A DNA stretch of 64,000 bases from Allobaculum mucilyticum (GTDB lineage: Bacteria > Bacillota_I > Bacilli_A > Erysipelotrichales > Erysipelotrichaceae). This document shows, in pieces, positions 8,161 to 58,050 of the stretch. The stretch's first letter is position 1. The number at the start of each line of letters is the position of its first letter. The position numbers and the translations under genes were made by a program. Location: positions 1,116,001 to 1,180,000 of the forward strand of contig NZ_CP078089.1 in the NCBI RefSeq assembly GCF_022701195.1, read 5' to 3'. Below the pieces are notes generated by a model that had not been told where the DNA came from, did not search any database, and saw nothing but the letters and a program-made list of their open reading frames with translations.

Positions 8161-8231
8161 AGATTCTTTTCTTTGTTCTGTTTCTGTATCTCTGAGACTT
8201 TTCAGCTCGTCTTTCTGCCTGTTCCTTTCCT

Positions 8232-8269
8232 ATATTTATATAGAGCTCTTATATTTATATAGAGCTCTT
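8232..8269. repeat. Two perfect 19-bp tandem repeats upstream of argC
   Basis: ATATTTATATAGAGCTCTT occurs twice head to tail at 8232-8250 and 8251-8269, with a related partial copy (GTATTTATATTG) near 8287. Each unit contains the palindrome AGAGCTCT and TATATAAA-like -10 material when read on the minus strand. The spacing places the boxes about two helical turns apart. This is the only structured element before argC, so a regulator site or promoter is likely. It does not match the usual ArgR/AhrC box as I know it. Confidence 0.55.
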
Positions 8270-8393
8270 AGTATGAGTATCTGTGCGTATTTATATTGAT
8301 CAGAAGCAGTTCGGACAGAAAGCCGATTTCAAAGCGTTCAGAAGAACCGCCGCGCCGATGAACTCATCCTGCGCGGCGGACACTGGTGGGATT

Positions 8394-27542: not shown

Positions 27543-28853
27543 ATGACTGCTATCGCCAAAGAATGTTCTTTCTTCAGAAACACCTTCCTCAATATCATCA
27601 GCTCAGAAACGGCGAACCCTGCCAATTTTACTTCTCAGTCCGCCTTCACCCGTAAGCGGCAGATTGACCTGCATGAGCTTGTCCTTCTTCCGTTTCAGCT
27701 GACAGAGGAATCCCTCGCTGCTTCCTTTCCCTGGATCCTGTTTAAGGGCGGATCATCTGTTTCAGCCTCTGCTGTGTCTCAGGCCCGTTCCAAAATCAAC
27801 TCTTCACTTTATAAAAACGTCTTCAATCGGTTTAACAAGGCAACTTCCAGCTCTGATGTTAAAACCTTCAAGGGTTATCGCCTCCTCGCTGTAGATGGAA
27901 GCGAGATTCAAGTTCTTCCTGAACAGGACAATGACATCACCTATGGCGCTTCTAAAAAAGGCAAGAAGAGGCACTTTGTTCATTTGAATGCCGAATTCGA
28001 CGCCCTCAACTCCGTCTTTACTGACGCGCTGCTTCAACCCGGCTCTGAGAAGAATGAAGATTCAGCTCTTCTTGAACTCGCTCAGCGTTCTTCATTTCAG
28101 AAAGCCATCTTCATCGCTGATCGGGGATACGAAGCTCTTATGTCTTTCTATCGCCTGCAGAAGGAACATGTCCCTTTTGTCATACGTATCAAAGACGAGA
28201 CATCATCTACAAGCATTCTCAAGTACTATAAGACTCCCGAGTCAGAAGAGTATGACATTCCTTTCAATGTGATTCTGACCAGTAAAAACAACAGGCATGT
28301 CAAAGACCATTGGGATGTCTATAAGTACATCTCTTCGTACAGGAAGCAGCCTGAATTTGACGGTCAAACGACTGAACTCCCTTTAAATATCAGGGTTGTG
28401 AGGTTCAAAGCTGCCTGCGAAGGGAATGAATCATTCATTACCGTCTGCACCAATCTGTCGGAAGCTGAGTTTGGGACCGAGGACATCAAGCAGATCTACC
28501 GTCTGCGCTGGCAGGTTGAAGTCGGCTTCAGGGGACTGAAACGAAACACCGATCTTGAATGGACTCATTCAAGGAAGCTTGATCTGGTCCAGGCAGAGAT
28601 CTATGCCAAAATGACTCTCTACAATCTTTGTTCCCGTTTGCGCAACAAGGTAGAAAGATCTCGTCAGCACCAGAAGCGCATCGCTCAGGCCAAAAAGCAC
28701 AAGCAGAAGGCAGATTTCGGATTCATCATCAAAACGATTCAACAGTGGCTGTTCAAAAAAGCCAGAATCAGCTTGAGTACACTGGAAGATCTTCTTCTGG
28801 CCAGGATATCTCCGATCAGAGAAGGAAGAGCTGATACCAGAAAGAAGAAGTGA
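27543..28853 (+). CDS. IS4-family DDE transposase
   Basis: 436 residues, full length. The acidic triad is visible: Asp in LLAVDGSEIQ, Asp in IFIADRGYEA and Glu in YRLRWQVEVGFRGLK. The last fits the family's Y-(2)-R-(3)-E-(6)-K signature exactly. The C-terminus is Lys/Arg-rich. AAAGGAG lies eight bases before the ATG. The frame is intact and the terminal repeats are perfect, so the element may still move. Confidence 0.92.
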   Translation: MTAIAKECSFFRNTFLNIISSETANPANFTSQSAFTRKRQIDLHELVLLPFQLTEESLAASFPWILFKGGSSVSASAVSQARSKINSSLYKNVFNRFNKATSSSDVKTFKGYRLLAVDGSEIQVLPEQDNDITYGASKKGKKRHFVHLNAEFDALNSVFTDALLQPGSEKNEDSALLELAQRSSFQKAIFIADRGYEALMSFYRLQKEHVPFVIRIKDETSSTSILKYYKTPESEEYDIPFNVILTSKNNRHVKDHWDVYKYISSYRKQPEFDGQTTELPLNIRVVRFKAACEGNESFITVCTNLSEAEFGTEDIKQIYRLRWQVEVGFRGLKRNTDLEWTHSRKLDLVQAEIYAKMTLYNLCSRLRNKVERSRQHQKRIAQAKKHKQKADFGFIIKTIQQWLFKKARISLSTLEDLLLARISPIREGRADTRKKK

Positions 28854-43117: not shown

Positions 43118-43307
43118 ATCATTCCTCATGCGTCCGCCAGGACGCTTCTTTTCTCTTTCAGAACTGCAATACACATAGCCCTTACGGGTTTTAAGCTTCT
43201 TAGAACCGGGAAACCGTCTGCCTGAATACCAGATTCTGACAGACGGGATCCTGTTTCATTGTTCATTCATTCTGTTTATAAAATAACATCATCAATCGTT
43301 CTGCTGA

Positions 43308-44222
43308 TCAGTACGATTCAACTGGAATCTCCTGATCGGTATGGATGATCATGACGCGCTCGCCCATGATGAACCGCGGATTCACAGGTTTTCTTACCGA
43401 CTGTGCGGCAGGCTGAGCGGCAGATCTCTGATTCAGATTTGTCGTCAGCAGCTGCGTTTCATCTTCGGTATCTGCACTGTGGTAGTTTTCCGTCACCAGA
43501 TCGTGGGTCTGGCTGTCCGTCAGCTCAGATGTATCGAGGATATCCTCAAATTCAACACTCTCTGCCTGAGGGATACGTGCGGAAAGCGGCGTTGTCGGTT
43601 CGTCTTCAAGCGGTTCCGGCTCATCTTCAAGCGGTGTCGTCTGAATGTCATCTTCGTCAAAGTCGTAAAGCGACTCATCGGAAATATCCGCACTGCCTGG
43701 TCCGGCTGCTGCAGCTGTCACCGTAGCTGTGCTGTCCGTGTCATCTTCACGCATCGAGCCATCTGGCGAGGTGAGGGTCTCGGTCAGGCCGGCTTCTTCA
43801 ACAAAGCCAGGCTGGCGCTCTGCATCAGAGAGCGGTACGGTGTCACATTCATCATCAAGACTGCCGTCGTCATACTGCAGCTCAGTGAGCTGAACAGTTT
43901 CGTTTCCAGCCTCGTCCTGCTGATTCCAGTCAAGCGGTGCTGTATCGGATTGACCTTCCGGAAGAGCCTGCTCTCCGGGAGCCTGACTGGCGAACTTCCT
44001 GTAATCTTTGTCCGGTTTTTCTTTGACCGGAGTCGCGGTCTTTTTCTTCTTTTCGCGTTCCTGACGGCGGGCCGCAATTTCACGTCTTGCGCTCTTGCCG
44101 TTCAGGTCGGCGATGACATCGGGAATACGGAGTTTCCAGAAGAAGAATGCGGCCGCAACCGCAAATACAGCTGCCAGGATATACAGACCGTAAGCGATCA
44201 GACGTAAGTTATCTGTACTCAT
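43308..44222 (-). CDS. Single-pass membrane adaptor with six acidic Thr-x-x-Leu motifs
   Basis: 304 residues. One membrane segment (about 8-30, LIAYGLYILAAVFAVAAAFFFW) is followed by a basic stretch (SARREIAARRQEREKKKK), so most of the protein should be cytosolic. The acidic middle carries repeated sites with Leu at Thr+3: TAPL (94), TVQL (109), TVPL (128), TTPL (195 and 210) and TQLL (256), flanked by Asp/Glu. The C-terminus FIMGERVMIIHTDQEIPVE looks conserved but is unassigned. It starts two bases after the kinase stop, so the two are coupled. I recognise no family. The motif pattern makes it a likely phosphorylation target and FHA docking platform. Confidence 0.75.
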   Translation of the reverse strand: MSTDNLRLIAYGLYILAAVFAVAAAFFFWKLRIPDVIADLNGKSARREIAARRQEREKKKKTATPVKEKPDKDYRKFASQAPGEQALPEGQSDTAPLDWNQQDEAGNETVQLTELQYDDGSLDDECDTVPLSDAERQPGFVEEAGLTETLTSPDGSMREDDTDSTATVTAAAAGPGSADISDESLYDFDEDDIQTTPLEDEPEPLEDEPTTPLSARIPQAESVEFEDILDTSELTDSQTHDLVTENYHSADTEDETQLLTTNLNQRSAAQPAAQSVRKPVNPRFIMGERVMIIHTDQEIPVESY

Positions 44223-44224
44223 AA

Positions 44225-45943
44225 CTAATCACCTTCGAGTCCCTTCGTATCTTCAATGTTCTGTTTGATCTGTTCGGCAATCTTCTGCTGGAACGCACTT
44301 GGATGACTCAGCTCTTTGCCGTCTACCTGGATTGAAGCGCCATTCTGAACCACATTTGAGGAAATCTGGTCCAGAAGCTGTGTTCTGCGTTCGGCGATTG
44401 CCGGATCTTTACCGAAGGCATCTGCTGCTGCACGCTCTCCATTAAGAATGGAAGTAATGATGGAATACTGAATCAGCTTTTCATCACCAGGCGTACCCTG
44501 CGTCTGAACAATCGATTCGGCATGGTCGAAGAAGGATGCCGGTGTAACATTATCCTGCTGTTCTTCCTGACCAGGCATATGCGTCTTGTCGGCAATAATG
44601 TTGTCTCTGTAATAATTGAGCAGCGTATAGAAGTCTTCCGAAACTTTGGCGTTGTCGAATGTATCCGTTCCGCGTTCTTGGATGGCGTCTTCATTTGCGC
44701 TTAGATACGGCATCGCTTTACTGATCTGGTCACGGAGTGTCTTACCTTCTCCGTAGTCGACCAGGAAGTATTCAGCAAGCCGCAGGTTCATATCAAACTG
44801 TTCAGATGTTGACGGGTTTCGATGGAAACTGGTCGCATCATAGGCTTTCAGGAATTCGTCAACTTGTTTGGACGTAAAGTCTTCGGACCACAGGCTATTG
44901 ATCATTGCCTGATAGGGCTGAACGTCTTCTTTTCTGCCGCTGACCGCAATGGCCTCCTGGAATGCCTGAAGCTTTCCGTCGGTGCTGGTCGAGTTTGTGA
45001 CCATGCTTACATGCTCTGCAAAGTTGTTCTGGTCCTGAACAGATGCATAGACCTGAATGCCGATGCCGCCAACAAGCATGACGGTTGCAGTCGCCGCGGT
45101 GATCGCAAACGTGCGGAGTTTGCTTTTCTGCTTTTTCCGGTAGTCACGGGTGATCTGGTCCGGATGCGAGAGATCGTAAAGAAGCTCTTCACAGTTCTGG
45201 TACCGGTTTTCCGGAGCAGGCGCCGTACATTTGTTGATGATGAGCTCGATACCTTCAGAAAGGTTCGGGTCCCAGCTTCGTACTGGTGCATAGGCATCAG
45301 CTGTACGCGGGTCAACGCCGGTCAGCAGGTGGTGCATGGTCATACCGATCGCATAGATATCGGATCTTGGATCGGTCTGGCCGCTGTACTGTTCGGGAGG
45401 AATGTAGCCGCGTGTTCCAAGAGCAACCGTATCGGTGAGGTTGCCGACTTTGTATTCACGCGCGATACCGAAGTCAATGATCTTGATGTTGCCGTCAGGC
45501 TTAAGCATGACGTTTCCGGGTTTCATATCGCGATAAATAATCGGAGGATCCTGCCGGTGCAGATAGCTGAGCGCATCGGTGATCTGCTTGCCCCATTCAA
45601 TGACTTCGTCTTCCGGGAATTTCTGTCTTTCTTTCATGACTTCGAAGAGGTTCTGACCTTCGACGAAGTCCATAACTACGTATTTCTTGCCGTTTTCATC
45701 GATCAGGTCGACGATTCGCGGCAGAGCGGGATGGTCAAGACGCATGAGCATCTTGGCTTCCTGCATAAACTGGCTGATGTAAATTTCTCCGTTTTCATCC
45801 TTGCCGGTCTGTTTGACTTCTTTTACAGCCCACAGCTTGCGCAGACGGAGGTCGAGGGCCAGGTAGACAATTGACATGCCGCCCCGGCCGACTTCTCGCT
45901 GAATTTCGTATTTACCGCCAAGGACATATCCGCTCTGAAGCAT
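44225..45943 (-). CDS. Transmembrane Ser/Thr protein kinase without PASTA domains
   Basis: 572 residues. A cytosolic kinase domain (about 10-265) has GRGGMSIVYLA, Lys41 (AVKEVK), YRDMKPGN with catalytic Asp140, DFG at 158-160, the activation segment TDTVALGTRGYIPPEQ and SDIYAIGMT. A single span (278-302) leads to an external helical region of about 270 residues. It has none of the PASTA repeats of PrkC/Stk1 and no recognised ligand domain, so the signal sensed is unknown. It sits between PP2C (three-base gap, GGAGG inside the PP2C end) and the adaptor (two-base gap). The Thr-rich activation loop suggests autophosphorylation reversed by the neighbouring phosphatase. Confidence 0.92.
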   Translation of the reverse strand: MLQSGYVLGGKYEIQREVGRGGMSIVYLALDLRLRKLWAVKEVKQTGKDENGEIYISQFMQEAKMLMRLDHPALPRIVDLIDENGKKYVVMDFVEGQNLFEVMKERQKFPEDEVIEWGKQITDALSYLHRQDPPIIYRDMKPGNVMLKPDGNIKIIDFGIAREYKVGNLTDTVALGTRGYIPPEQYSGQTDPRSDIYAIGMTMHHLLTGVDPRTADAYAPVRSWDPNLSEGIELIINKCTAPAPENRYQNCEELLYDLSHPDQITRDYRKKQKSKLRTFAITAATATVMLVGGIGIQVYASVQDQNNFAEHVSMVTNSTSTDGKLQAFQEAIAVSGRKEDVQPYQAMINSLWSEDFTSKQVDEFLKAYDATSFHRNPSTSEQFDMNLRLAEYFLVDYGEGKTLRDQISKAMPYLSANEDAIQERGTDTFDNAKVSEDFYTLLNYYRDNIIADKTHMPGQEEQQDNVTPASFFDHAESIVQTQGTPGDEKLIQYSIITSILNGERAAADAFGKDPAIAERRTQLLDQISSNVVQNGASIQVDGKELSHPSAFQQKIAEQIKQNIEDTKGLEGD

Positions 45944-45946
45944 GGC

Positions 45947-46732
45947 TTACGCCTCCGCGCCTGGCTGTTCCCCGGCGTAGACAAGAATGGCCGAGATGTT
46001 GTCTTTCTCCTGACGCTTCTTATCTTCTTCAATGAGCGCCCGCAGATTGCGGTGCATATCCCCAGTTCCGCGCTGACTGCCCGGACCGAGCAAGTTGTAG
46101 ATTTCCTGCGGGGAAATGACATGACGGAATCCGTCGGAGCAGAGCAGATAGGTTCCAGGAACTGTGGTTCCAAGAATGATATCCGGTTCAACTTTCTGCG
46201 AAGCGCCGACGCACTGCAGAAGCATGCTTCTGCGGCGGTCTACTTTCGCCTGCTCAGGGGTCATCCGGCCCATGGCAATTTCTCTGGCAACAAAGGTCTG
46301 GTCGTTGGTGACCTGTTCGATGTGATCGGTCATCAGATACAGACGGGAGTCGCCGACATGAACGCAGACAAATTCGTTGTCCACGATCAGAAGCGCGGTT
46401 ACGGTTGTTCCCAGGCTGATATCAATGGATACGCCATAGTTGTAAATCGTTTCGTTGAGCGTAACGAGCATCTTGGCAAGACGTTCGCCGATGACACGCA
46501 GATCGAGGTTGTCCATCTGAAGCGGGAGCTCCTCATCAAACCAGCGGTCGAATACCCGTACTACGGTGGCACTGGCCAGTTCGCCCTTGGACAGACCGCC
46601 CATTCCGTCACAGACGACGGCGAGCATCACTTCTTTGTTGTCGCAGGCAGCGTGCCTGTAAAGCAGGCTGTCCTGATTCGTCGCTTTGCGCAGTCCGACA
46701 TCTGTCTGGGCTGCAGCCGCAAATCGCAGCAT
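45947..46732 (-). CDS. PP2C-type Ser/Thr phosphatase
   Basis: 261 residues, cytosolic. The PPM motifs appear in order: TDVGLRKATNQDS, VCDGMGG with metal Asp42, SLGTTVTALLI, HVGDSRLYL, LLCSDG and KDNISAILV. It should dephosphorylate the adjacent kinase and its substrates, as PrpC does for PrkC. AAGGA lies seven bases before the ATG. The kinase follows three bases after its stop. Confidence 0.94.
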   Translation of the reverse strand: MLRFAAAAQTDVGLRKATNQDSLLYRHAACDNKEVMLAVVCDGMGGLSKGELASATVVRVFDRWFDEELPLQMDNLDLRVIGERLAKMLVTLNETIYNYGVSIDISLGTTVTALLIVDNEFVCVHVGDSRLYLMTDHIEQVTNDQTFVAREIAMGRMTPEQAKVDRRRSMLLQCVGASQKVEPDIILGTTVPGTYLLCSDGFRHVISPQEIYNLLGPGSQRGTGDMHRNLRALIEEDKKRQEKDNISAILVYAGEQPGAEA

Positions 46733-46945
46733 AGTGAGTTCCTTTCCTGCCCGGATGCGTCCATCCGGACTCTGTTCATCTGCTCAGCCGGGCTGAGCCG
46801 GCTGATTCGTCCGGCTGTCTGCATCGGCAGTCAGCCGTTCTGTTTCTTCTAATCTCTATCTCTTGTGGTTCTCTTATATTTCTCTTGTGTGGCTTCTTTT
46901 CTTCTTTATTTATTACTGATTTATTTATTACTGACGCCTGTGGGC

Positions 46946-48364
46946 TCAGCTCGAGGTGAAGATGAATTCTTCATCTGCAAGCATCAGACGGTCGCCGCTG
47001 TTGATCGGGAAGTTTACATTCGGTGTCAGGACGGTGCCGTTGACATAGGTTTTGTTCATCGAGTTGCGGTCAACGACATAGCCTCTGCCATTCTGGAAAA
47101 CCAGATCAGCATGTGCGCGGCCGACAGCCGTGTTGCCGCGGATCTGATAGTCGCTCTTCTTGTCGCGGCCTAAACGGAAGACTGAACGGTTAACAGGAAT
47201 CTGTTCATTCGTGCTGGTCCGTCTCAGAAGACCCCACTGCTGGAAGTCCTGTGCACCGGAATTCATTCCGTTCATGCTATTCATGGAATTCATGCTGTTC
47301 ATGCTGTTCATGCTGTTCATGCCGTTCATGGCATTCATTCCGCCATCCATGAGCATCGTGTCGCTGTCCATCAGCGCATTGTCGATGACCATGGTTTCGC
47401 CAAATTCAGCAGAAAGCGTCGGCATGGAAGGACCGGCAGGTCTTGGAGCCTGGCCAAAGCCCTGAACTGGCATGCCATTTCCCTGCGGCATGCCGCCCGG
47501 TCTGTTATCTGGCATACGGTTTGGCATTGGCTGCATGTTCACCTGCATTCCGCTGTTTGGCATGCCCATTGGCATACCGCCTGGCTGCATTCCCATCGGC
47601 TGCATGCCTGCCGGCTGCATCATGGGTCCGTTGGATCCTGGACCGCCTGGCATCATGCCGTTGGGCTGTCCTTGCGGATGAGGCTGCGGGCCGCCGCGGT
47701 TGATGAAAGCACTCGGGCTGGTTCTTGCAACGCCAAGACGTTTGACTTTCTTGACAATTTCCGGATTTCTCTGGTTTACAAACTCTTCAAGATTCGAGCA
47801 GACCTGCTTGGTGTGCTGGCTGATTTCTGCATCCCGGCGGATCGGGTCGATCATATCGACATTCAGAATTGGGATCTGGCTCATCCGGTGCATGAATTCG
47901 TCACGGACACGGGCGGCCATTTCAGAGTCCGGAATGAACATCTGACATACCTGATCCAGGAATGCACGGATATCAACATAAGGAACATCGACCATCATCG
48001 GTACAAAAAGGAAATACATCTCTGTTGTCGCGAGATTGATGAAGACGTGTTCCGGATCAAAATCGACAAATCCAAGCGGGATATGCTGCTGATCCATCCG
48101 GCTTGTCAGGTCAACGGCCTGCATGACCATTTTGAAAAAGGCTTCAGCCGGCAATGGTCCGGACAGCCAGTTTGAAAGCGGAACTGCAGCCGGTCCGGAA
48201 AATTCAACGCTGTTGTTTTTTACAGATTCCTGAATCGGCCGAAACAGACCGCGAACTTCAACATCGGAGAAAAAGCCGATGCCGCCGCGGTCGATCTTGC
48301 ATCCCCGCGGCAATTTAGCACGAATGACAATCTTGTTATCGTACTGTTTGACTTTGATTTTCAT
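46946..48364 (-). CDS. Protein with N-terminal DUF6382/EssB-like domain and C-terminal FHA domain
   Basis: 472 residues. The N-terminal 170 residues (PRGCKIDRGGIGFFSDVEVRG to FINLATTEMYFLFVP) recall the pseudokinase-like module found before FHA domains in Bacillota. A linker rich in Met/Gly/Pro/Asn/Gln follows and includes a run of NSM units. The FHA domain is at about 385-472 (RLGRDKKSDYQ, RAHADL, NKTYVNG). The usual Ser of SRxH is Gly and the NGT is NKT, so phosphothreonine binding may be weakened. Two Thr sites before the run (ETMVIDN, DTMLMDG) match the adaptor's motif style. The start MKIK has AGGGGA upstream; ATGs at 48415/48412 with AAAGGA are alternatives. It heads the FHA-PP2C-kinase-adaptor series. 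Confidence 0.8.
   Translation of the reverse strand: MKIKVKQYDNKIVIRAKLPRGCKIDRGGIGFFSDVEVRGLFRPIQESVKNNSVEFSGPAAVPLSNWLSGPLPAEAFFKMVMQAVDLTSRMDQQHIPLGFVDFDPEHVFINLATTEMYFLFVPMMVDVPYVDIRAFLDQVCQMFIPDSEMAARVRDEFMHRMSQIPILNVDMIDPIRRDAEISQHTKQVCSNLEEFVNQRNPEIVKKVKRLGVARTSPSAFINRGGPQPHPQGQPNGMMPGGPGSNGPMMQPAGMQPMGMQPGGMPMGMPNSGMQVNMQPMPNRMPDNRPGGMPQGNGMPVQGFGQAPRPAGPSMPTLSAEFGETMVIDNALMDSDTMLMDGGMNAMNGMNSMNSMNSMNSMNSMNGMNSGAQDFQQWGLLRRTSTNEQIPVNRSVFRLGRDKKSDYQIRGNTAVGRAHADLVFQNGRGYVVDRNSMNKTYVNGTVLTPNVNFPINSGDRLMLADEEFIFTSS
47275..47342. repeat. Nine-base tandem repeats encoding (NSM)n / (NGM)n
   Basis: ATTCATGCT-type 9-mers are repeated about seven times with small changes and encode an Asn-Ser-Met run between the linker and the FHA domain. 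Length changes here would stay in frame. Confidence 0.75.
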
Positions 48365-48775
48365 ATTCAGATTCCCCTGCCTTCTCTTTCCCGCTCCGGT
48401 CTGCTGCGTCATCATGCTGTCCTTTTTTGTGCCAAAAAAAGAGACAGCCGGACACGGCTTCCGGAACTGCAAGATGTTCTGTAAATTAATTAAAGAATTT
48501 TTTAAATAAAATAGATTTTTCAGTTATATAAATATCTATCATGGCAGTGTAGTATTTAAAAATTCTGCTTATTCTTATTTAAGATACTATGCAAATCCGC
48601 ATCCGCAAAAGATATTTTTCTCTGATTGTTAGTTCTTGAGCTGAATCATCATAATTTATTACATTAATCTTCAAACATGGTCTAAGATATTTTCACATTT
48701 CTCTAGTAGAAGAAATACATGCTACTTTCAGATACACTGATATTCAGATAAATCTGTCAGAAAGGAGGATGCTCT
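48365..48775. other. Divergent promoter region of the two FHA arms
   Basis: AT-rich (especially 48480-48700), placed between the minus-strand FHA-PP2C-kinase unit and the plus-strand FHA genes, so it should hold both promoters. Several TATAAA/TAATTT words occur, but I cannot choose a reliable -35/-10 pair. Confidence 0.5.
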
Positions 48776-50719
48776 ATGCCGCCTTACAGCGACAATTGCC
48801 AGACCGCGCCGGTTGTCCTTGAAAACGAACTTGGGCAGATGCAGAGATTCAACGGACCATTTGTCTGTGCAGGACGCCGGCAGGGATGCGATCTTTATCT
48901 GGAAGATCCGCAGGTCAGCCGGGATCACTTCAATCTGTTCTGGCAGGACGGAACCTGGATGATCCAGGATACATCCGCCAACGGAACATTCCTGAATGGT
49001 GTCCGTCTTACCCGCAATACAGCCGCACCGCTGACTGAAGGCACAAAAATCGGCATCCGCATCCGGACAGGGTCCAGCGCCGGATCTGCATACTATAAAA
49101 ATATAGAATGGACCGTTCACCTTTCTGACAGACCGCCAGCGGAGAACCTGTATCTGGGAACGATCTGGTTCGATCTCTCGCTGAACGGAACGTCTTCTGC
49201 CATTGACCTCAACAAGCTGCTTGAACAGCAGGGATTCATTCTTTCAAGAGATCCGCTGATCCTTGAGCAGCGTTCGAATTCATGGATTCTGCGTCAGAGC
49301 CGGGAAAACCGGCCGATTCAGAATGGCACGAATCTGACGACCGACTCCGGTCTCCATCTTTACTTTGGAAAGAACAGCGAACCGGAGATTCTCTCCAGTC
49401 TTACACGCGCCACAACGGCGTTCAGTCTGTACCATCATGATCCGGCCAGCCGCCATACCAGACAGGAACTTCTTGCCTGCATGAATTCAATGAACCTCTA
49501 TATTCCTGTTCTGCCTGTGCCAAAAAAGCTGAATCTCCCGTTTGGAAATGGAACATTTGCGGTCGGTTCTCCTTTTGGTCATCTGCCCGGCATGTTCCCG
49601 ATCCTGTTTTTCCCCAATGGCAGTCAGCGTCCCATGACCCCGCTGTTCTTTGACCCGCGTACCCTTCGTTCCATGTTTCCCCAGGCAATGATCGTCGTAA
49701 CAACCGGCGTTCGCTATGTCGACATTCACCTTGGTTCACAGAGTGATTCCAGAATTGGTACCCTTCTTGTCTCAACAGACGGAAAAGGAGCCGAACTTGA
49801 CCGCGGTTTCTTTACGGGAGATGACCCTGATCCTGATCCTCGCCATGTGCTTAATGCCGACCCCCCGTTTCCTCCCGGAGACGAGCCAACGGGTTCCGGC
49901 TGGACTCCCCAGAGACTTGCCTCAAAAGTTACCGAGCTGTCTAACGGTCAGTTCGAAGTGCTGACTACATACCCTTCTACGATCACAAAAGATAAAGCCA
50001 ATCTGATGGGACGTCGAACCGGATCGGTTGAATTTGTCCGCATCAGCATCGACTTCAATCCTGACCGCTTCAGCCAGTCGGGTCATACCGGCGGCGGATC
50101 GCTGTTTGATCAGTTCATCAATCTGCAGCACCCCTGTCTGCAGCGTCCCTGTTTCTACAACCGGGATCATGAATGCATGGTCTTTATCTACCCCAGCCTG
50201 AAGCTTTCCCTGCTCAGAGGTGAAATTGATGCGACCGGAAGCTATGAACGGGCCAAAGCCCTGGCAATTACCCTGCAGATTCTCAATTTTCTGAAGTATC
50301 TGTATTCACAGCCTGTTCCGATGCTTCTGCGCCAGATCGATCCGGACAGTTTCTACATCACACAGGACGGCCGCGTAATCTGTGCCTCGCTGCTGAGTCT
50401 GAACGATATTCTCCTTCCAGGAGAAGCGGATCCGATCAGCGGCAGTCCATATACGGCACCAGAAGTGTTCACCAAAAAGCAGGACATCTGTTCTTCCGTC
50501 TACTCTGTCGGCATGATGGCACTCTATCTGGTTACCGGACAGAATCCGGGAGAACTCATCAGTGCTTATGGTTCAGACATCAAGGTGAAAAAGCTCGGCT
50601 ATGACGTATCGCAGGCTTTCGATCACTTCATCCGAAAGAGCATCCGCCCCGCTTCAAGCGCGCGCTACCAGAATCTTGAAGAATGCATTGATGAAATCCG
50701 TGCCGCTGCTGCCCCATAG
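48776..50719 (+). CDS. FHA domain protein with C-terminal pseudokinase-like domain
   Basis: 647 residues, cytosolic. A complete FHA domain (1-105) has CAGRRQGCDLYLED, QVSRDHFNLFW and SANGTFLNG, all key residues present. A middle region (about 200-320) is beta-rich and resembles the SseB N-terminal type at LYIPVLPVPKK and MTPLFFDPRTL, with low certainty. The last 180 residues align in layout with a Ser/Thr kinase C-lobe (PYTAPEVFTKKQDICSSVYSVGMMALYLVTG, then an Arg-rich end), but the catalytic loop reads LRQIDPDSFYI and no DFG is found, so it cannot be an ordinary kinase. AAAGGAGG lies seven bases before the ATG. It probably scaffolds phosphoproteins. Confidence 0.8.
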   Translation: MPPYSDNCQTAPVVLENELGQMQRFNGPFVCAGRRQGCDLYLEDPQVSRDHFNLFWQDGTWMIQDTSANGTFLNGVRLTRNTAAPLTEGTKIGIRIRTGSSAGSAYYKNIEWTVHLSDRPPAENLYLGTIWFDLSLNGTSSAIDLNKLLEQQGFILSRDPLILEQRSNSWILRQSRENRPIQNGTNLTTDSGLHLYFGKNSEPEILSSLTRATTAFSLYHHDPASRHTRQELLACMNSMNLYIPVLPVPKKLNLPFGNGTFAVGSPFGHLPGMFPILFFPNGSQRPMTPLFFDPRTLRSMFPQAMIVVTTGVRYVDIHLGSQSDSRIGTLLVSTDGKGAELDRGFFTGDDPDPDPRHVLNADPPFPPGDEPTGSGWTPQRLASKVTELSNGQFEVLTTYPSTITKDKANLMGRRTGSVEFVRISIDFNPDRFSQSGHTGGGSLFDQFINLQHPCLQRPCFYNRDHECMVFIYPSLKLSLLRGEIDATGSYERAKALAITLQILNFLKYLYSQPVPMLLRQIDPDSFYITQDGRVICASLLSLNDILLPGEADPISGSPYTAPEVFTKKQDICSSVYSVGMMALYLVTGQNPGELISAYGSDIKVKKLGYDVSQAFDHFIRKSIRPASSARYQNLEECIDEIRAAAAP

Positions 50720-51029
50720 AACAACTGAGCTGAACACGCATAACATCTGTCCAGAAAAATAAAAGCGGACAGACACATTCTTACCGCCTGATCGGTCGAC
50801 CGGCTTTCGGGGGTGACAATGGGTCTGCTCGCTTTTCTCTGTTTAAAACCCATCTGACAGACTGGACAGAAGTAGCAGAAAAGCCGTCAGAAACGATGAT
50901 AAAATTCGTTTTCGGTTTCAATGTCTGTATTTGGGTCGTATAAAAATATTACAGGAATAATTGCGGCTCGCCGTCAGTATGCAGGATTCGCTCTGAGAGG
51001 TGATGTTCTGCATGGAAGGAGGAATCTGC
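50720..51029. other. Spacer between the two plus-strand FHA genes
   Basis: About 310 bases without a gene. A TATAAAAATATT word near 50940 may be a -10 for the FHA-kinase gene. A GC-rich hairpin-like stretch (GATCGGTCGACCGG near 50790) is present without a T-run. Confidence 0.35.
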
Positions 51030-52568
51030 GTGATTTTTAACACAGACCAAAAAGACAGCTCTGCACTCGTCCAGGACGGGCAGTCCGCTGCAAATGACCA
51101 ATGCTATATGCCAGGCTCCGGCCCATCTGCAGGAAAAGGCTCCCGTGCAATGCGACGGTACGGCCTGTTCGGCTGGCACAAAGGCAGCCGAAGCAGTGAA
51201 AGCAGTCAGCCACAGCCGCAAATTCAGCCAAACCGCCCGTCACCTTCAGATACCGTTCTGCTTCCGCAGAGTGAACTTGGCCCTGAGCTGAGTTCAGGTA
51301 CAAGTGATGGCACCGCCGGTTCAACGACTTCCCAGACTGGCAGCATCAACGTCGGTCTTCGTTTTATCGGAAGTCCGGAAAAGAAAGAATTTCCAGGACC
51401 CCGGGTCGTTCTTGGCCGTGAAGGCGATTTCTTCGTCACGGATCCAAAACGCACCGTTTCCCGCGTCCATGCGGAAATCACCTGGAATAAAACAAGGAAG
51501 AAATGGGTTCTGCTTGACCGTTCAGCAAACGGAACCTTCCTGAATGGCAAACGCATCGTCTCCGGAACCGCTGCTCCATTAAAGAATGGAGACAGAATCC
51601 GTCTGGCCTGCGCACAGGAAATTGAAATTTTTCTTCCGAAAACAAGTGAAGAAAAGCTTCCGCCTGAAATCATGAACGATAAACAGATGTCGCTCAATGG
51701 CAGAACGCTGCGCGGTATCCGGGTTCTCAATGAAATCGGCCGCGGCGGCTTCTCCAAAGTCTATGTAGCCGTTACACCCGATGATCAGCTGATCTGCATT
51801 AAGCATCTTGCCGGCAAAGGCGCAACGCCGCAGAACCTGCAGGAATTCATCGACAGCATCAACTCCGACAACCCGCCGATGTTTGCTGAACATCAGTCCA
51901 GCAAGCTCCGTATTTCAGAAAACGAATACAGCATGGTCAGTCAGTTCAGACACCCGGGCATTCTGCATGTTTTCGAAAAATTCGCAGCGCCCGAGCACAT
52001 CATGATCTTCATGGAACTGCTCGACGGACCGACGCTTCATCAGATGATTAACGACGTCCGCCGGATTGACCCGCTTCTTGTCACGGATATTTCCATTCAG
52101 ATCGCATCGATTCTTGCCTACTTGCATACCCTGCCAAGACCGGTTGTCTACCGTGACCTCAAACCGATCAACCTGATTATTACCAGAGATGAAAAAGTGC
52201 ACCTGCTCGACTTCGGTATTTCTGAATATTATGTTCCGGGTCAGGCTGATGCCAACCCATGCCATACCGAAGGCTATTCAGCCCCGGAGCAGGACAACCA
52301 GCATTCAACGCCTCTTTCTGATCTATATTCTCTGGGCGTTACCATGTTCGTTGCTCTGACCGGACGTTCCGTTACCCGGCTGAAAAACGCCAAGCCGCCT
52401 TATCACCCCGGCGACTATGTAGCTGTTCCACACGAACTCGACCAGGTGATCGCCCGCCTGACCGAACCCAATCCCGCCATGCGTTTCCAGAGTGCTAACG
52501 AAGTTGTTCAGGCTCTGCTTGACGTACAGTACCGGATCGGCAAACCAGGCCCCTGGTTCAGCAACTGA
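51030..52568 (+). CDS. Soluble Ser/Thr kinase with N-terminal FHA domain
   Basis: 512 residues. A disordered start contains SDTVLLPQ, another Thr-x-x-Leu site. The FHA domain (about 110-200) has VVLGREGDFFV, TVSRVHAEI and SANGTFLNG intact. The kinase (about 230-490) has GRGGFSKVY, IKHL with Lys258, YRDLKPIN, LDFGISEYY and EGYSAPEQD. There is no membrane span. The kinase appears active, and the FHA could recruit primed substrates or the kinase's own phosphorylated tail. The start is GTG at 51030, since AAGGAGG lies seven bases upstream and the earlier in-frame ATGs have no such site. A 47-base spacer leads to the repeat protein. Confidence 0.9.
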   Translation: MIFNTDQKDSSALVQDGQSAANDQCYMPGSGPSAGKGSRAMRRYGLFGWHKGSRSSESSQPQPQIQPNRPSPSDTVLLPQSELGPELSSGTSDGTAGSTTSQTGSINVGLRFIGSPEKKEFPGPRVVLGREGDFFVTDPKRTVSRVHAEITWNKTRKKWVLLDRSANGTFLNGKRIVSGTAAPLKNGDRIRLACAQEIEIFLPKTSEEKLPPEIMNDKQMSLNGRTLRGIRVLNEIGRGGFSKVYVAVTPDDQLICIKHLAGKGATPQNLQEFIDSINSDNPPMFAEHQSSKLRISENEYSMVSQFRHPGILHVFEKFAAPEHIMIFMELLDGPTLHQMINDVRRIDPLLVTDISIQIASILAYLHTLPRPVVYRDLKPINLIITRDEKVHLLDFGISEYYVPGQADANPCHTEGYSAPEQDNQHSTPLSDLYSLGVTMFVALTGRSVTRLKNAKPPYHPGDYVAVPHELDQVIARLTEPNPAMRFQSANEVVQALLDVQYRIGKPGPWFSN

Positions 52569-52615
52569 TCTGCATCATCCATCATCCGTAATGGAAAAAT
52601 TTAAGGAGACTCCAT

Positions 52616-55519
52616 ATGTCCCGTAATGATGAAAGCTTATATTCCACGTCCATTCTCAGTGACGATCCAGCCGCTTCAGGTCAGCCGGAAGGACCTTCAT
52701 CCGGCGGCGGTTCTTCGTTCCAGTTTTCAAGCTGGAACGGTTCGGATAATTCCAGAAAACCATCCTGGAGTACGCAGACCGCCTTTGCCTTTGAAAGCGC
52801 AAACCAGAATCAGAATTCTTCCATGAATCAGGGCGGCCAGAATCAGAACAGTCCGTACGGAAATTCCCGCCCGCAGCAGCCGCAGAATTCCGGATTCAGT
52901 TTTGGACCGAGTGTCCAGGAGCGCCAGTCAGCTTCTGCACACCACACGCAGCCTGACCCAGCCAATGAGCCATCGCCCTACACTTCTAATGAAGCCCGCC
53001 GGCCCAGCTTCTCATCCTCTATTCTTGATGCCTATGCCCGTTCGGAAGATGGAAGCTACAGAGCCCATGCTTCTCTTGATACATACACAACAACCTTTAA
53101 GAGTCCGGAACCTGAATACCAGAATCCGAATGCTTTGTTTGGTTCTCCGTTCCCACAGAACAATGCCGGTTTCAATGCCGGATATCAGGCGCCCATCCAG
53201 GACGATGACGATCTGGATTCTGAAATGCCGACCTCTCTGCTGAACGGCCAGCCGGATTTCTCCAGATCCCATTTGGCTGCAGATGAATCAGACGATTCCG
53301 ACCTGCCAACTTCTCTGTTAAACAGACCAGCCGGCAATTCCCAGAACTCAAACGCTTCGTCTGGATCTTCTTTCTCCCAGAACAACGCCGGTTTCAATGC
53401 CGGATATCAGGCACCCGCTGAAGAAGATGACGACCTCGACTCGGAAATGCCGACGTCTCTGCTGAGCAGCCGGCCAAGTTTCTCCGGAGCGGATTCTGCT
53501 ATGGATGATGACGATGATTCTGATCTGCCAACTTCCCTGCTTGGAAGCAAACCAGATTTCTCCAGCGCTCACTTTGCGGCGAACGAACCTGACGATTCCG
53601 ACCTGCCAACTTCTCTGCTGAACAGTAACCCAAGTTTCTCCAGTTCAGACTTCGCAGCAAACGAGCCTGATGACTCTGACCTGCCAACTTCTCTGCTGAA
53701 TGGTAAGCCCAGCTTCTCCAGCTCAGACTTCGCAGCAAACGAGCCTGATGACTCTGACCTGCCAACTTCTCTGCTGAATGGTAAGCCCAGCTTCTCCAGC
53801 TCAGACTTCGCGGCAAATGAACCCGATGATTCTGACATCCCTACTTCTTTGCTGAATGGAAAGCCCAGCTTCTCCAGCTCAGACTTCTCAGCAAACGAAC
53901 CAGATGACTCCGATCTGCCAACTTCTCTGCTGAATGGTAAGCCCAGCTTCTCCAGCTCGGACTTTGCCGCGAATGAACCCGACGATTCTGATCTTCCGAC
54001 TTCTCTGCTAAACGGCAAACCGACTTTCACCAGCACAGTCTTTGGCTCAAGCGAACCGGACGATTCCGATCTGCCAACCTCTCTGCTGAACGGCAAACCA
54101 ACTTTCACCAGCACAGTCTTTAACCAAAACGAGCCGGACGATTCTGATCTTCCGACTTCTCTGCTCAACGGCAGCCACGGCTTCTCCAGTTCAGGCTTTA
54201 CCCCGAACGAACCAGTCGATTCCGTCCAGCCGACCTCCCTGGCTGGGGGCAGACCAGATTTTTCCGGTCTGAATCCGGACAATACCGTTCCATATGATTC
54301 CCCGCAGAATTTCAGCGCAGGCTATTCGATGAATAACAGTTACATGGACATCGAACCAGATCCCGTCCTTTCTGCTAATCACCCCGCTTTCCAGTCCGCA
54401 AATTCCTTTGGCGGTTTCTCTTCTGCAGACATGAATGAATCTGAGCCGCCGACTTTCCTGAACATGGAACCGGATCCGGCTTATATGAACCTGGATGCGG
54501 ATCAGACAATGCCGTACGAGCAGCGTATGAACCCCGGTTACCAGAACCAAGGCAATCCTTCTGCTTCCAGTTTCCAGAGTTCCAGCTATTTCTCATCTGC
54601 GAGCGAAACCGGCAATCCGTTCTATTCAAACCCTCAGAATGCCGGCAGATCATCCGGATCGTTCATTATGGACGATGAACCCGAAACTTCGGTCAATGAG
54701 TTCCCTGAACTGGAGGAAATGGACAGCAATCCAATTCCCGGTGCTGACGAACCCGGTTATTTCCAGTCCTCTTTTTCTGGCAGCAGCTGGAACAGTCAGG
54801 AAGTTGATGATTCACTAACCTGGTCTGCTGATCAGGGAAAACGTAATCAGGGCTGGAACGATTCGTACCATGATATGGGCGACCCGAATCAGACTCAGGT
54901 CATGGAAGACAGACGCAGACAGGCTTCCAGAAGCCAGTCTTCCGCCGCTCAGTCCGTGCATTTCTCTGCTGCCGATGCAGACTGGAACCGTAAGCAGGAT
55001 CAGTATTACGATGACCTGGATGAAGACGATATTGAAACGAACATTTATGCAGACGATCCTGTACAGGATCCAGATGCGACGAATGTTGTCTACAAAAACA
55101 TGCCCGGAAACTGGTCTGACGTTCTTGGCGATCAGTCAGACGAGGCTTCCAGACTGCCTGCCAGAGGACAGACCATCTGGATCAGGAAGGGCGAAGGCAA
55201 ATCAGTTCCTTCAGCACTCTATCTGCAGAGCATCAACTATGGCTATACAGCTGCATTAGGTCAGGAAGCTGTTCTGCTTGGCCGCGGTGAAATCTGCGAC
55301 TGGGTCATCGGCAAATGCCGCAACTCCCATTCGATCAGCCGCCAGCATGCATGGATTACCTGGGAACCGTCTCATCGTGCCTGGGCGATTCAGGATATCT
55401 CCAAAGCCGGTACAACACTGAACAACCGTCCGGTTTCGCAGGATCATTTCGTTCTGCTCAAAGAAGGAGATATTGTCCAGTTCGGCAGTTCGGATGCCTT
55501 CCGCATCCACATTGGCTGA
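52616..55519 (+). CDS. Repeat-rich scaffold with 12 PTSLL motifs and a C-terminal FHA domain
   Basis: 967 residues, no signal peptide or membrane span, with Ser, Asn, Asp and Pro dominating. Residues about 195-545 hold 12 good copies of an acidic motif [SE]-D/E-x-PTSLL plus one decayed copy (QPTSLAGG). The central copies have an exact 26-residue period (ANEPDDSDLPTSLLNGKP and SFSSSDF). In every copy Thr is followed by Leu at +3. Later sites DNTVPYD, DQTMPYE and NQTQVMED have the same acidic Thr style. The C-terminal FHA (about 870-967) has LLGRGEICDW and SISRQHAWITW, but NGT is replaced by AGT. AAGGAG lies seven bases before the ATG. It is best read as a multi-phosphorylated hub for FHA proteins. 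Confidence 0.85.
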   Translation: MSRNDESLYSTSILSDDPAASGQPEGPSSGGGSSFQFSSWNGSDNSRKPSWSTQTAFAFESANQNQNSSMNQGGQNQNSPYGNSRPQQPQNSGFSFGPSVQERQSASAHHTQPDPANEPSPYTSNEARRPSFSSSILDAYARSEDGSYRAHASLDTYTTTFKSPEPEYQNPNALFGSPFPQNNAGFNAGYQAPIQDDDDLDSEMPTSLLNGQPDFSRSHLAADESDDSDLPTSLLNRPAGNSQNSNASSGSSFSQNNAGFNAGYQAPAEEDDDLDSEMPTSLLSSRPSFSGADSAMDDDDDSDLPTSLLGSKPDFSSAHFAANEPDDSDLPTSLLNSNPSFSSSDFAANEPDDSDLPTSLLNGKPSFSSSDFAANEPDDSDLPTSLLNGKPSFSSSDFAANEPDDSDIPTSLLNGKPSFSSSDFSANEPDDSDLPTSLLNGKPSFSSSDFAANEPDDSDLPTSLLNGKPTFTSTVFGSSEPDDSDLPTSLLNGKPTFTSTVFNQNEPDDSDLPTSLLNGSHGFSSSGFTPNEPVDSVQPTSLAGGRPDFSGLNPDNTVPYDSPQNFSAGYSMNNSYMDIEPDPVLSANHPAFQSANSFGGFSSADMNESEPPTFLNMEPDPAYMNLDADQTMPYEQRMNPGYQNQGNPSASSFQSSSYFSSASETGNPFYSNPQNAGRSSGSFIMDDEPETSVNEFPELEEMDSNPIPGADEPGYFQSSFSGSSWNSQEVDDSLTWSADQGKRNQGWNDSYHDMGDPNQTQVMEDRRRQASRSQSSAAQSVHFSAADADWNRKQDQYYDDLDEDDIETNIYADDPVQDPDATNVVYKNMPGNWSDVLGDQSDEASRLPARGQTIWIRKGEGKSVPSALYLQSINYGYTAALGQEAVLLGRGEICDWVIGKCRNSHSISRQHAWITWEPSHRAWAIQDISKAGTTLNNRPVSQDHFVLLKEGDIVQFGSSDAFRIHIG
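53210..54250 (+). repeat. 78-bp tandem repeat array in the FHA scaffold gene
   Basis: Units of 78 bases (26 codons) are repeated from about 53570 to 54240 with high identity between neighbours (for example 53651 and 53729), and two looser, longer-spaced copies precede them. The copies differ at silent positions as well, so the array is not a recent single burst. Copy-number change would keep the frame. Confidence 0.88.
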
Positions 55520-55553
55520 TTCACCTGAATACTTGATCTTTCAATTGAAACGT

Positions 55554-55586
55554 ACGCCGTCTTTCACAGTGGAAGCCGGCGTTTTT
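55554..55586 (+). terminator. Terminator of the plus-strand FHA arm
   Basis: ACGCCG pairs with CGGCGT, with further TTTC/GGAA pairing inside, followed by five T. It lies 35 bases after the scaffold gene. Confidence 0.75.
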
Positions 55587-55610
55587 GCATGCGCTCTCAT
55601 GAAAAAGCGC

Positions 55611-55643
55611 AAAAAGGCACCGACCGTGAATGCGGCCAGTGCC
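55611..55643 (-). terminator. Terminator of the zinc-ribbon gene at 55702
   Basis: On the minus strand GGCAC-GGCCG and CGGTC-GTGCC form the stem, followed by TTTTT. It lies about 60 bases after the stop. Confidence 0.7.
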
Positions 55644-55701
55644 TGTCTTTCGTGGATGGGAAAAAGAAATCCAGCTGAAGTTCAGATTCTGGATTGTGTG
55701 T

Positions 55702-56313
55702 TTAAAGAGGGGTATGGCAGCGCAGGCACTCCGAACGTCCTTTCGGGTTTTTGACGCCGCAGCGGGAGCAGACCTGACTGGTTGGAACTTCCTGTCTGCC
55801 TTTTCTGCGCCAGATACTGCCGCCTGCCTGCTCTGGAACCGAAGTCTGTGCCAGCTGATTGAGCGTGTCGATGTAGTGGTAAAGCAGGTCCGGAAGATCT
55901 TTTCCGATTGTCGCTTTCCACTCTGTTCTCCAGACGTCTTTTGATCCTTCGGATCCGTAAATCGAACGTGCGCACCGACGTTTGAAATCCGCGGTCATTA
56001 CGCTGAGCCAGTTGACATCTTCTCCGAGCATTTTCAGAGGATAGTTGACCTGAAAATAGAACATGCCGCGCAGTCTGTCGTTCCAGAAACGATAGTCTTT
56101 GAGGTTGGAAAGAATCCGGCGTACCTCTGTCACTTTTTTGGCGAAAGTTTCTGAGAGCTCATCGATTTCTTTTGGCGTGACTGTCTCAAAGGAAAAATCA
56201 ATGCGGCGGTTGATAAAGTTTACATCCTCGGACAGCCCTCTGAGCTGGTTAGCCGCAGCATGGGCGATATTGGCGATCGATACTTGTTCCGATGTAATCA
56301 TAATGGTTTCCAT
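55702..56313 (-). CDS. Helical protein with C-terminal zinc ribbon
   Basis: 203 residues. The N-terminal 150 residues are predicted helical (ANIAHAAANQLRGLSEDVNFINRR and on) with conserved-looking Trp/Arg positions (FWNDRLRGMFYFQV), and no family is recognised. The C-terminus has a rubredoxin-like zinc ribbon, CSRCGVKNPKGRSECLRC. No membrane segment. The first ATG has no clear ribosome site; the ATG four codons later is the alternative. It shares strand and zinc-ribbon style with the next gene, which suggests a common job. It may report to the FHA network, but that is inferred from position. Confidence 0.6.
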   Translation of the reverse strand: METIMITSEQVSIANIAHAAANQLRGLSEDVNFINRRIDFSFETVTPKEIDELSETFAKKVTEVRRILSNLKDYRFWNDRLRGMFYFQVNYPLKMLGEDVNWLSVMTADFKRRCARSIYGSEGSKDVWRTEWKATIGKDLPDLLYHYIDTLNQLAQTSVPEQAGGSIWRRKGRQEVPTSQVCSRCGVKNPKGRSECLRCHTPL

Positions 56314-56489
56314 TCAGCCAGGAGCGGCTGTTCTTTTTCCTTAATCTCTTATTTCATTTTCCTGTTTCTTTTGTGCAGCTCTGATCTGTCTGCTTTTCTG
56401 GCAGCTTCAGTTTCATTTCTGTTCTCTTTTCCCTGCTTCGGACCTTTGTTTCTGTGTCCGGAATACGGGGTACACTGCCTGGTCGCAAA

Positions 56490-57794
56490 TCAGGAAGCTT
56501 TGTTGAAGAAGATATTTCCGTAAGCCTGCAGGCAGACATAATTTCCGTCATCCAGACGTCCCCAGACAAGATCCGGATAGTCAGGATTTACGTACAGTTC
56601 AACAACATGGACCGGAGTTCCTGGCGGCGTAGAGCCAACGATGGTCTGATCGAACAGATCTGGCGCACTGCGAACATACATCTCTTCTGCCGGGATGTAA
56701 TTGCCTGCATCAGGACTGGCTTCAACTGCTCCGGAAGGAGACTGTGAAGAAACTGCGACATCATTCTGGACAGAAGCCTGAGCAGATGAGGCATTGGGGT
56801 CTGTCGCATTTGTCTGCGAGGAAGGATTCATTGAATCTGTCTGCGATGTCATCAGAGAACCGTCTGCTTCAGAAACTGCAGCTGAATCCGTCATCCTCTC
56901 TGACATTGCTGCATCTGAGTAAGTTTCAGAAGACGGCACTGAGGGTTCAAAAGAAGATTCACTGGTGATTTCAATTGCGGTCTTCTCCGGGTTTGTTTCT
57001 GGCGGATTAATCTTGAAGAAATAGATGAGGGCAGCTGAGGCACAAAGTGCAAGAACGCAGAATGTAACTGCCGCAGTCTTTACTCCGTTGTGGCGTTTTG
57101 GCGGCTTTCCATCCGGATAGACGGAAGCTGATCCTTTTGCGGCAGCTTTGGAATGTCGCGGGTTGTAGCTCGACGAATGGGCGCCAGTCGAACCGTAAGA
57201 TGCTTCTGCTGCGCTCGACATATCCGGGCGCTGTCTTTTGGGGAGTTTTGAATTGTTAAAGGTCGAGGTGTCGCTCGGATAGCTGACATGAACCGGTGAT
57301 CCCGGCGCAGCTGCCTGCGGCTGCAGATTTGTCTGAGCACTGCTCTGCATGCCGGTCTGCGAATAGCCCGGACGTCTGCGATCGGGTGCCGCCTGGCGGA
57401 CGCCGGATAGTCGCGATGAAGAAGGTGCTGCAGTTCTCCGTCTTGGGTCAGGGGAAGCCCCCCATTTTTTGGCAGCCGGGGCGGATCTTGCAGGATCATA
57501 GCCGGTTGCCCGGAGCGTATACACCGAGGCTTCCTGTTTTTTTGCGTAATCAGAGTGAACGCCGGACATCACATAATCGGAAAGGACTTCAACGACCTGA
57601 CTGTCGTAGTCATCCTCTTTTCCTAACGCGGTCTGACGGTAATAGTCGATCGTTTCAAGCCGTCTATCACGGTGTGAAGACTGCTCGTCGAATCCAGCCT
57701 GCGGGTGCCGGTTTGCGTTTGGCATTGCACTTCCGCAGCGGATACAGTACTTTGCGTTTTCCGGATTGTCTGTTCCACAGTGAGAACAATACAT
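56490..57794 (-). CDS. Zinc-ribbon membrane protein with external SH3-like domain
   Basis: 434 residues. The N-terminal zinc ribbon (MYCSHCGTDNPENAKYCIRCG) is followed by about 230 residues of disordered, Ser/Pro/Gln/Arg-rich cytosolic sequence, one membrane span (TAAVTFCVLALCASAALIYFF), a Ser/Thr/Glu-rich external linker and a C-terminal SH3b-like domain (MYVRSAPDLFDQTIVGSTPPGTPV to DLVWGRLDDGNYVCLQAY). SH3b domains outside the membrane usually contact peptidoglycan, so the protein could connect the wall with cytosolic partners. The start is at the ATG before YCSHCG, as in other zinc-ribbon proteins; an ATG eight codons upstream is possible. It lies 230 bases downstream of the vWA gene on the same strand. 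Confidence 0.78.
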   Translation of the reverse strand: MYCSHCGTDNPENAKYCIRCGSAMPNANRHPQAGFDEQSSHRDRRLETIDYYRQTALGKEDDYDSQVVEVLSDYVMSGVHSDYAKKQEASVYTLRATGYDPARSAPAAKKWGASPDPRRRTAAPSSSRLSGVRQAAPDRRRPGYSQTGMQSSAQTNLQPQAAAPGSPVHVSYPSDTSTFNNSKLPKRQRPDMSSAAEASYGSTGAHSSSYNPRHSKAAAKGSASVYPDGKPPKRHNGVKTAAVTFCVLALCASAALIYFFKINPPETNPEKTAIEITSESSFEPSVPSSETYSDAAMSERMTDSAAVSEADGSLMTSQTDSMNPSSQTNATDPNASSAQASVQNDVAVSSQSPSGAVEASPDAGNYIPAEEMYVRSAPDLFDQTIVGSTPPGTPVHVVELYVNPDYPDLVWGRLDDGNYVCLQAYGNIFFNKAS

Positions 57795-57982
57795 GGGGAT
57801 CACCATCCTTCGGTCCATCTGAAGTGTTTCAGAAACATGGACTACCGTATTATTTAACTATACTTGCAAAGTTCCTGAAGATAAACCAATTCTGAGAATC
57901 CCGCAGCGATTCTTTGTGAATGAGACGAAATTTGAAGACCAGTTCGTCATGCAAACGAATCTGTTCTTTTTTTGCACCAGAA

Positions 57983-58021
57983 AGCCCGGAGTCGCTGAGA
58001 TGAGCTCGCTGACTCCGGGCT
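57983..58021 (-). terminator. Terminator of the vWA surface protein gene
   Basis: AGCCCGGAGTC pairs with GACTCCGGGCT over a 17-base loop that can also pair. The following TTTCTGG is a weak T-run. It lies 30 bases after the stop at 58051. Confidence 0.6.
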
Positions 58022-58050
58022 ATTGACTCTTTCAAACAGAATCTTATTTT

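Follow-up and report, generated by a model that had tools for sequence, protein, structure and literature searches.

The type VII secretion system T7SSe, named in 2024, is described as comprising the components A, A2, B, C, D, F, H, I, J and K (Garrett, Higginson and Palmer 2024, PMC11217815), among them two WXG100 proteins (TseA and TseA2), a YukD-like protein (B), an EssC bearing an FHA domain (C), a membrane Ser/Thr kinase (D), a PPM phosphatase (F), a DUF6382-FHA protein (J), a giant Sec-exported, Ig-like protein with a transmembrane (TM) segment (I), as well as TseH and TseK, each having one TM segment and a short unstructured cytoplasmic stretch. According to the available text of that description, threonine phosphorylation may control the assembly, the phosphorylated partner not being named there (PMC11217815). 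The related types T7SSd and T7SSj have a kinase and a giant I component in common with the locus presented here, T7SSd being listed for Actinomycetota only and without A2, B, F, J and K (PMC11217815). A similar principle operates in the type VI secretion system, an unrelated machine, where the PpkA-Fha switch—a kinase and an FHA protein—controls the secretion complex, Fha activating secretion by binding the sequence DLPpTVVEI of the membrane protein TssL (PMC3953482).

The stretch of DNA analysed as a whole (the window, 64,000 nucleotides) covers the positions 1,116,001-1,180,000 of the Allobaculum genome G000, a single contig of 3,144,153 bases that is 92.5% complete. The island of interest is organized in three transcription units (Table 1): the minus unit 36377-48364 with P0004, P0003, P0002, P0001 and P0010, the plus unit 48776-55519 with P0005, P0006 and P0007, and the minus unit 55702-62838 with P0009, P0008 and a 203-aa Zn-ribbon protein. 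Since the third unit is convergent with the second one, the arrangement assumed in the earlier note, i.e. all genes cotranscribed or divergent around one promoter region, does not hold. As far as the promoters themselves are concerned, nine promoter-like sites were observed in the island region against 11.9 expected by chance, and evidence from single sites was therefore discarded. On the other hand, all the protein classes named in that note are indeed encoded—a membrane Ser/Thr kinase, an FHA-kinase, a PP2C phosphatase, four FHA proteins (each above the Pfam cut-off), a pseudokinase, a membrane adaptor, two Zn-ribbon proteins (one scoring under its Pfam cut-off) and two surface proteins. Apart from the island, the window contains a run of seven large minus-strand ORFs for arginine biosynthesis (2976-11108; named by eye), and a type I restriction-like set, broken by a transposase-like ORF, lies just to the right of the window (L015:3573-13546).

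Table 1 Features of the island in window coordinates
Feature	Position	Strand	Characteristics
P0010, TseI-like giant surface protein, 2,246 aa	36377..43117	-	MSKRF start; signal peptide, Ig-like repeats, C-terminal TM
P0001, TseH/TseK-like protein	43308..44222	-	Single TM at the N-terminus; acidic tail carrying 10 T-x-x-L
P0002, TseD-like membrane Ser/Thr kinase	44225..45943	-	Pkinase 3.4e-47; TM by eye
P0003, TseF-like PP2C/PPM phosphatase	45947..46732	-	69.5% identical in G092
P0004, TseJ-like protein	46946..48364	-	N-terminal domain resembling DUF6382, linker rich in Met, Gly and Pro, FHA at the C-terminus
Intergenic region from which the two main units diverge	48365..48775	.	Promoter-like sites without excess
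P0005, FHA + uncharacterised middle + pseudokinase	48776..50719	+	Genus-specific in the genomes searched
P0006, FHA + kinase	51000..52568	+	Catalytic residues present
P0007, long disordered region + C-terminal FHA	52616..55519	+	12 PTSLL repeats
Zn-ribbon protein, 203 aa	55702..56313	-	Homologue (35%) at the matching place in G092
P0008, Zn-ribbon, TM, C-terminal SH3-like part	56490..57818	-	TM and SH3 by eye
P0009, VWA + FctA/Spy0128 isopeptide domains + C-terminal TM, 1,595 aa	58051..62838	-	6 isopeptide stretches

That the unit 36377-48364 represents one half (J-F-D-H-I) of a secretion system of the T7SSe type is well supported by sequence comparison. The five genes of this unit match the components J, F, D, H (or K) and I, so that the set can no longer be considered as not described; a single protein of the TseH/TseK type, P0001, was found. 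The frame of P0010 opens at 43174 and has 2,265 codons, the length of 2,246 residues being counted from the MSKRF start; the protein has one C-terminal TM segment and ends in a short, charged tail on the cytoplasmic side, both signal peptide and TM being assigned by eye. Its Ig-like Big_13 match is weak (E 0.001), the domain scoring over the cut-off in the orthologues from G092 and G085 (E 3e-97 to P0010), and homologues are present in the other block-bearing loci as well. P0001 ends with a conserved IHTDE-like motif, and both P0002 and P0006 retain the kinase lysine, the catalytic aspartate and the DFG. For P0004, the start was taken as the ATG at 48364 rather than the TTG at 48472. Its FHA domain is recognized by Pfam (9.6e-12), and its N-terminus matches DUF6382-like proteins in the profile comparison (hhalign 95.9%, E 6e-9; the target consisting of eight proteins whose own DUF6382 matches have E up to 0.05). 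The Pfam DUF6382 model applied directly to P0004 gave no match, and a search of PDB sequences with the P0004 profile yielded, apart from marginal ones, matches by the FHA domain alone.

The island has its counterpart in G092, the metagenome-assembled genome of an uncultured Allobaculum, where two contigs meeting inside the kinase gene carry ten island genes in the order found in the window, i.e. P0008, Zn-ribbon, P0007, P0006, P0005, P0004, PP2C, kinase, P0001 and P0010. The identities are 84% for the kinase (residues 1-217), 49% for P0004, 43% for P0001, 42% for P0010 (over the main match), 32% for P0005 and 31% for P0007. Because the order of ten genes is preserved on the two contigs at about 30-84% identity, the clustering goes beyond chance and the island is a real cluster, with the exception of the gene for the 1,595-aa protein. 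P0009 has homologues in two further Allobaculum genomes, in surroundings of 15.7 and 20 kb without other island genes, and no match in G092; its membership in the island was therefore rejected and it is probably a mere neighbour.

Beyond G092, P0005 was matched somewhere in 42 of 244 genomes of the family, the full-length match being confined to G000 and G092; a search across 392 genomes of the phylum (E 1e-20) retrieved its own genome alone, that sample evidently being without G092. With the P0004 alignment, 38 of 272 family genomes gave a match, again at full length only in G000 and G092; one of 98 candidate stretches from genome contigs was a relative, once more the Allobaculum G092, and none of the 180 candidates from viral contigs was. 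DUF6382 itself was matched in four of 395 genomes of the class. Together with the FHA-pseudokinase gene, those for the FHA-kinase, the repeat-FHA scaffold and the Zn-ribbon proteins, likewise present in G092, are a genus-level addition, by which the locus is unlike T7SSe as far as the latter has been described (PMC11217815). The pseudokinase domain of P0005 has neither the usual kinase lysine nor the aspartate of HRD nor the DFG. It may be added that residues about 250-345 of P0005 look SseB-like by eye, without a Pfam match.

Concerning the secretion ATPase and WXG100 proteins, whose absence the earlier note had pointed out, neither is found in the window plus 20 kb on each side, where the type VII query proteins gave no match; a type VII locus next door, which that note had regarded as able to explain the FHA proteins, was accordingly rejected. 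The genome, however, has two type VII loci elsewhere; a search for FHA domains pointed to nine places, two of them inside these loci. The one at 1,796.9-1,804.7 kb, about 630 kb away from the island, is by its domain content the A/B/C-like half with an additional FHA protein and a MinD-like protein: it encodes two Esx-like ORFs of 105 and 115 aa, a YukD-like protein, a 1,555-aa FHA-EssC (L010:12930-17597; FHA 2.8e-18, FtsK_SpoIIIE 4.3e-45), the MinD-like protein and FHA298. The YukD-like ORF (95 aa), located directly upstream of the EssC gene, scores 26.1 bits (1.5e-5) against the cut-off of 27 bits. Of the Esx-like ORFs, located shortly before B and C, one matches WXG100 at E 0.0016, i.e. below the cut-off, and the other does not match; the genome-wide WXG100 search yielded only the pair at the second type VII locus. 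FHA298, also DUF6382-like (E 0.0038, below the cut-off), represents a second J-like candidate beside P0004.

The second type VII locus (L014; G000 C1:695,246-704,624) contains the WXG100 pair, a 1,150-aa EssC of another branch without a Pfam FHA match, a 464-aa kinase and a 556-aa FHA protein; loci of this type recur in G003, G116, G134 and others. Among the Pfam matches of ten proteins from the two loci, there was no EssB/YukC pseudokinase, EsaA or EssA known from T7SSb, and no LXG match was found in the genome. A literature search pairing Allobaculum with type VII secretion returned nothing. It should also be mentioned that a third locus with kinase, Zn-ribbon, SH3-like and FHA-ABC-transporter genes (L012:5544-17619; G000 C1:1,355-1,368 kb) has its homologues in G092 (L089), where the gene order is unchanged, and that transposase-like ORFs of 436 aa, identical in their first 90 residues, are situated in opposite orientation near both the island and the 1.80-Mb locus (window 27543-28853 and L011:10137-11447).

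Further evidence comes from relatives belonging to other genera. In all seven of them (G085, G141, G238, G262, G267, G050 and G111), the FHA-PP2C-kinase-small TM-giant block is present together with an FHA-EssC on one contig, within spans of 10.7-24.5 kb; G092, G080, G267 C84 and G264 were left out of this count owing to contig ends. The type VII locus that could explain the FHA proteins therefore does exist in the relatives, and the view of the island as free-standing, not belonging to a secretion system, had to be abandoned in the light of these relatives and of the 1.80-Mb EssC locus in its own genome. Some variation within the block was seen: no H (small TM) gene was found in G262, and the J-position protein in G141, G238 and G267 has a different N-terminal domain—by eye a trypsin-like (SGGPLVD) domain with a TM segment (L077-L083). 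In G080, EssC and the J-F-D-H-I block are on separate contigs, J being cut by the contig edge. Beyond the giant gene of G080 (L108:12056-14688), a lipase-like 568-aa ORF and two WXG100-like small ORFs were seen by eye, a set that resembles a type VII substrate module.

A J-like gene alone is no sign of the block: in G043 (L102), one of the four genomes with a DUF6382 match, such a gene directly precedes EssC, and the 20 kb examined there contain no F-D-H-I. Within the genus, G003 (Allobaculum, 98% complete) has neither the J-F-D-H-I block nor the 1.80-Mb type of EssC, its EssC being of the 0.70-Mb type (509 vs 172 bits). G136, another Allobaculum, possesses a related EssC (66% over 267 aa) in a locus with a different kinase and frame breaks, the giant protein and P0004 being undetected.

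In the EssC tree, the 1.80-Mb EssC is grouped (99/100) with those from G141, G238, G262, G267 C228, G085 C40, G080 C68 and G267 C62, a group that spans five of the seven block-bearing loci; the EssCs from G050 and G111 fall into a clade of their own (98/100), and the 0.70-Mb EssC is positioned outside both. It should be noted that the tree has several long branches, including that of the partial sequence from G085 C40, that it is without published T7SSe sequences, and that its root serves for drawing only. The gene order in G085 is J-F-D-H-I-173aa-FHA311-MinD-YukD-EssC, and in G092 FHA297 comes directly after the I gene, the contig then ending within the first part of a MinD-like gene; in the own genome, I is the last gene of the block, ending at 36377, and FHA298 with MinD adjoins EssC, 652 kb from I. 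Based on these orders, the break point is placed after the I gene and before the FHA and MinD genes. The lack of a secretion ATPase in the window is thus accounted for by the splitting of the locus. Unlike the described T7SSe (PMC11217815), the components are found here in two loci and the Esx-like ORFs are weak; because clustering is how the type was recognized, and the halves are united on one contig in the seven relatives and not in this genome, the locus is filed as a split variant rather than a plain member of T7SSe. The two halves presumably work together.

With regard to the FHA domains as potential readers, those of EssC, P0005 and P0006 have the canonical phosphate-binding positions G-R, S-R-x-H and N-G (S-R-Q-H in EssC); in P0004 and FHA298 a glycine takes the place of the usual serine, and in P0007 an alanine that of the usual asparagine (threonine in G092). 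Based on these residues, three clear readers and three altered FHA domains can be distinguished. Profile searches also returned matches to FHA proteins of the GarA/OdhI type. In these switches, which regulate metabolic enzymes, a kinase-controlled threonine motif precedes the FHA domain N-terminally; the combination of a threonine motif with FHA is common to both, the motif being arrayed and membrane-anchored in the present case.

A candidate for such a motif is T-x-x-L, a spacing that FHA domains can read. The unstructured tails of eight H-like orthologues (P0001, G092, G080, G085, G141, G238, G267 and G050) are enriched in it with respect to residue shuffles within each tail's own composition, seven of the eight being nominally below 0.05; the combined p of 1.5e-13 is optimistic because the orthologues are related (G000/G092, as well as G141/G238/G267 of one genus). 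The count of 10 in P0001 compares with 1.84 expected, the others being 8 in G092, 8 in G080, 3 in G085 and 2-4 in G141, G238 and G267, and a single one in G050 (p 0.39). The tails have diverged, the motif often reading [D/E]T-x-x-L; a short H-like frame of G111, read after the set was fixed and thus outside the test, contains DKTQLLD. In the linkers of J-like proteins, T-x-x-L occurs in five of seven (combined p 2.6e-4), with none in P0004 or its G092 counterpart. When the 130 ORFs of 150 aa or more from about 204 kb of the own genome are compared, the excess is highest in P0007 (z 6.97) and P0001 (z 6.61), followed by P0002 (2.52). Residues 1-840 of P0007 have 13 T-x-x-L, 12 of them PTSLL, with T-x-L raised too; since they are tandem copies (78-bp units, 9.1 copies), they are not independent evidence. 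P0007 of G092 has 5. The DLPTSLL repeat of the island's P0007 resembles the FHA-bound TssL peptide DLPpTVVEI, that system relying on a single site of low affinity (Kd 1.58 mM for an 8-mer) versus the arrays observed here (PMC3953482). In the available text of the T7SSe description, a tail motif is not mentioned (PMC11217815).

From the domain content and motif distribution, we infer that the kinase would write, the PP2C erase and the FHA domains read T-x-x-L. The membrane kinase P0002 would phosphorylate the T-x-x-L threonines on the cytoplasmic tail of P0001, and the FHA domains of EssC, P0005, P0006 and perhaps P0004 would dock on the phosphorylated tail; this docking would bring together the ATPase, the pseudokinase and the scaffold beneath the giant protein that spans the envelope, switching the secretion on, and the phosphatase P0003 would reverse the phosphorylation. 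P0007, with its motifs and its own FHA, could serve as a polyvalent scaffold raising avidity, P0006 as a second, recruited kinase—the genus-specific FHA-kinase adding amplification—and the FHA-pseudokinase P0005 as a non-catalytic adaptor. A T7SSe gated by such polyvalent docking, in which the H-like tail and, in this genus, P0007 form a multi-site phospho-scaffold recruiting FHA-EssC as well as the kinase and the pseudokinase with FHA domains beneath the giant protein, is put forward tentatively, as a model whose chances we rate somewhat below even. The T-x-x-L excess might also result from the acidic, low-complexity character of the sequences or from tandem duplication rather than reflect FHA docking, given the tandem origin of the P0007 repeats, the G050 tail without a significant excess, and the biased composition and common descent of the tails. 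Such an origin seems unlikely, however, since the shuffles use each tail's own residues and the motifs are varied and non-tandem in both P0001 (SDTAPLD, NETVQLT, CDTVPLS) and G080 (DATELLD, DATEVLY, AETIVLE). Moreover, S-x-x-L and T-x-x-x-L are raised in none of the eight tails, the latter being at expectation in all of them, and T-x-L is nominally raised in two.

At the level of the whole locus, the phosphothreonine-regulated envelope machine envisaged in the earlier note fits the anatomy well, and what has to be weighed is whether it stands apart from type VII secretion. An independent surface-assembly system, building or displaying giant proteins on its own, would agree with the flanks free of type VII matches, with the joint conservation of the genus-specific P0005-P0008 and the block, and with the signal peptide and TM segment (by eye) of the giant protein itself; the block accompanied by EssC in seven of seven relatives, the EssC of the same group on the own chromosome and the P0009 homologues unlinked to any island make it improbable. 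We also regard as rather doubtful that the island was decoupled after the split and came to serve envelope signalling in general, with the ATPase half working alone or decaying. The physical separation of the halves, the added FHA and kinase genes and the weak Esx-like ORFs would suit such a history, as would the presence of the second type VII locus and of another, higher-scoring kinase at 3,107 kb; yet the frames are full-length in both halves, P0001 and P0010 have been kept in G092, and G003 is without both halves. The split T7SSe-type locus with the proposed phosphothreonine-gated assembly is therefore preferred as the best explanation, and we consider it probable.

The split has a consequence for how such systems are recognized: a neighbourhood survey anchored on EssC would overlook the J-F-D-H-I components here, just as a reading based on the window overlooks the ATPase. 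If true, the avidity switch would be a mode of control that the available text of the T7SSe description (PMC11217815) does not propose for type VII secretion, and the T-x-x-L arrays offer a concrete, testable candidate for what the T7SSe FHA domains may read.
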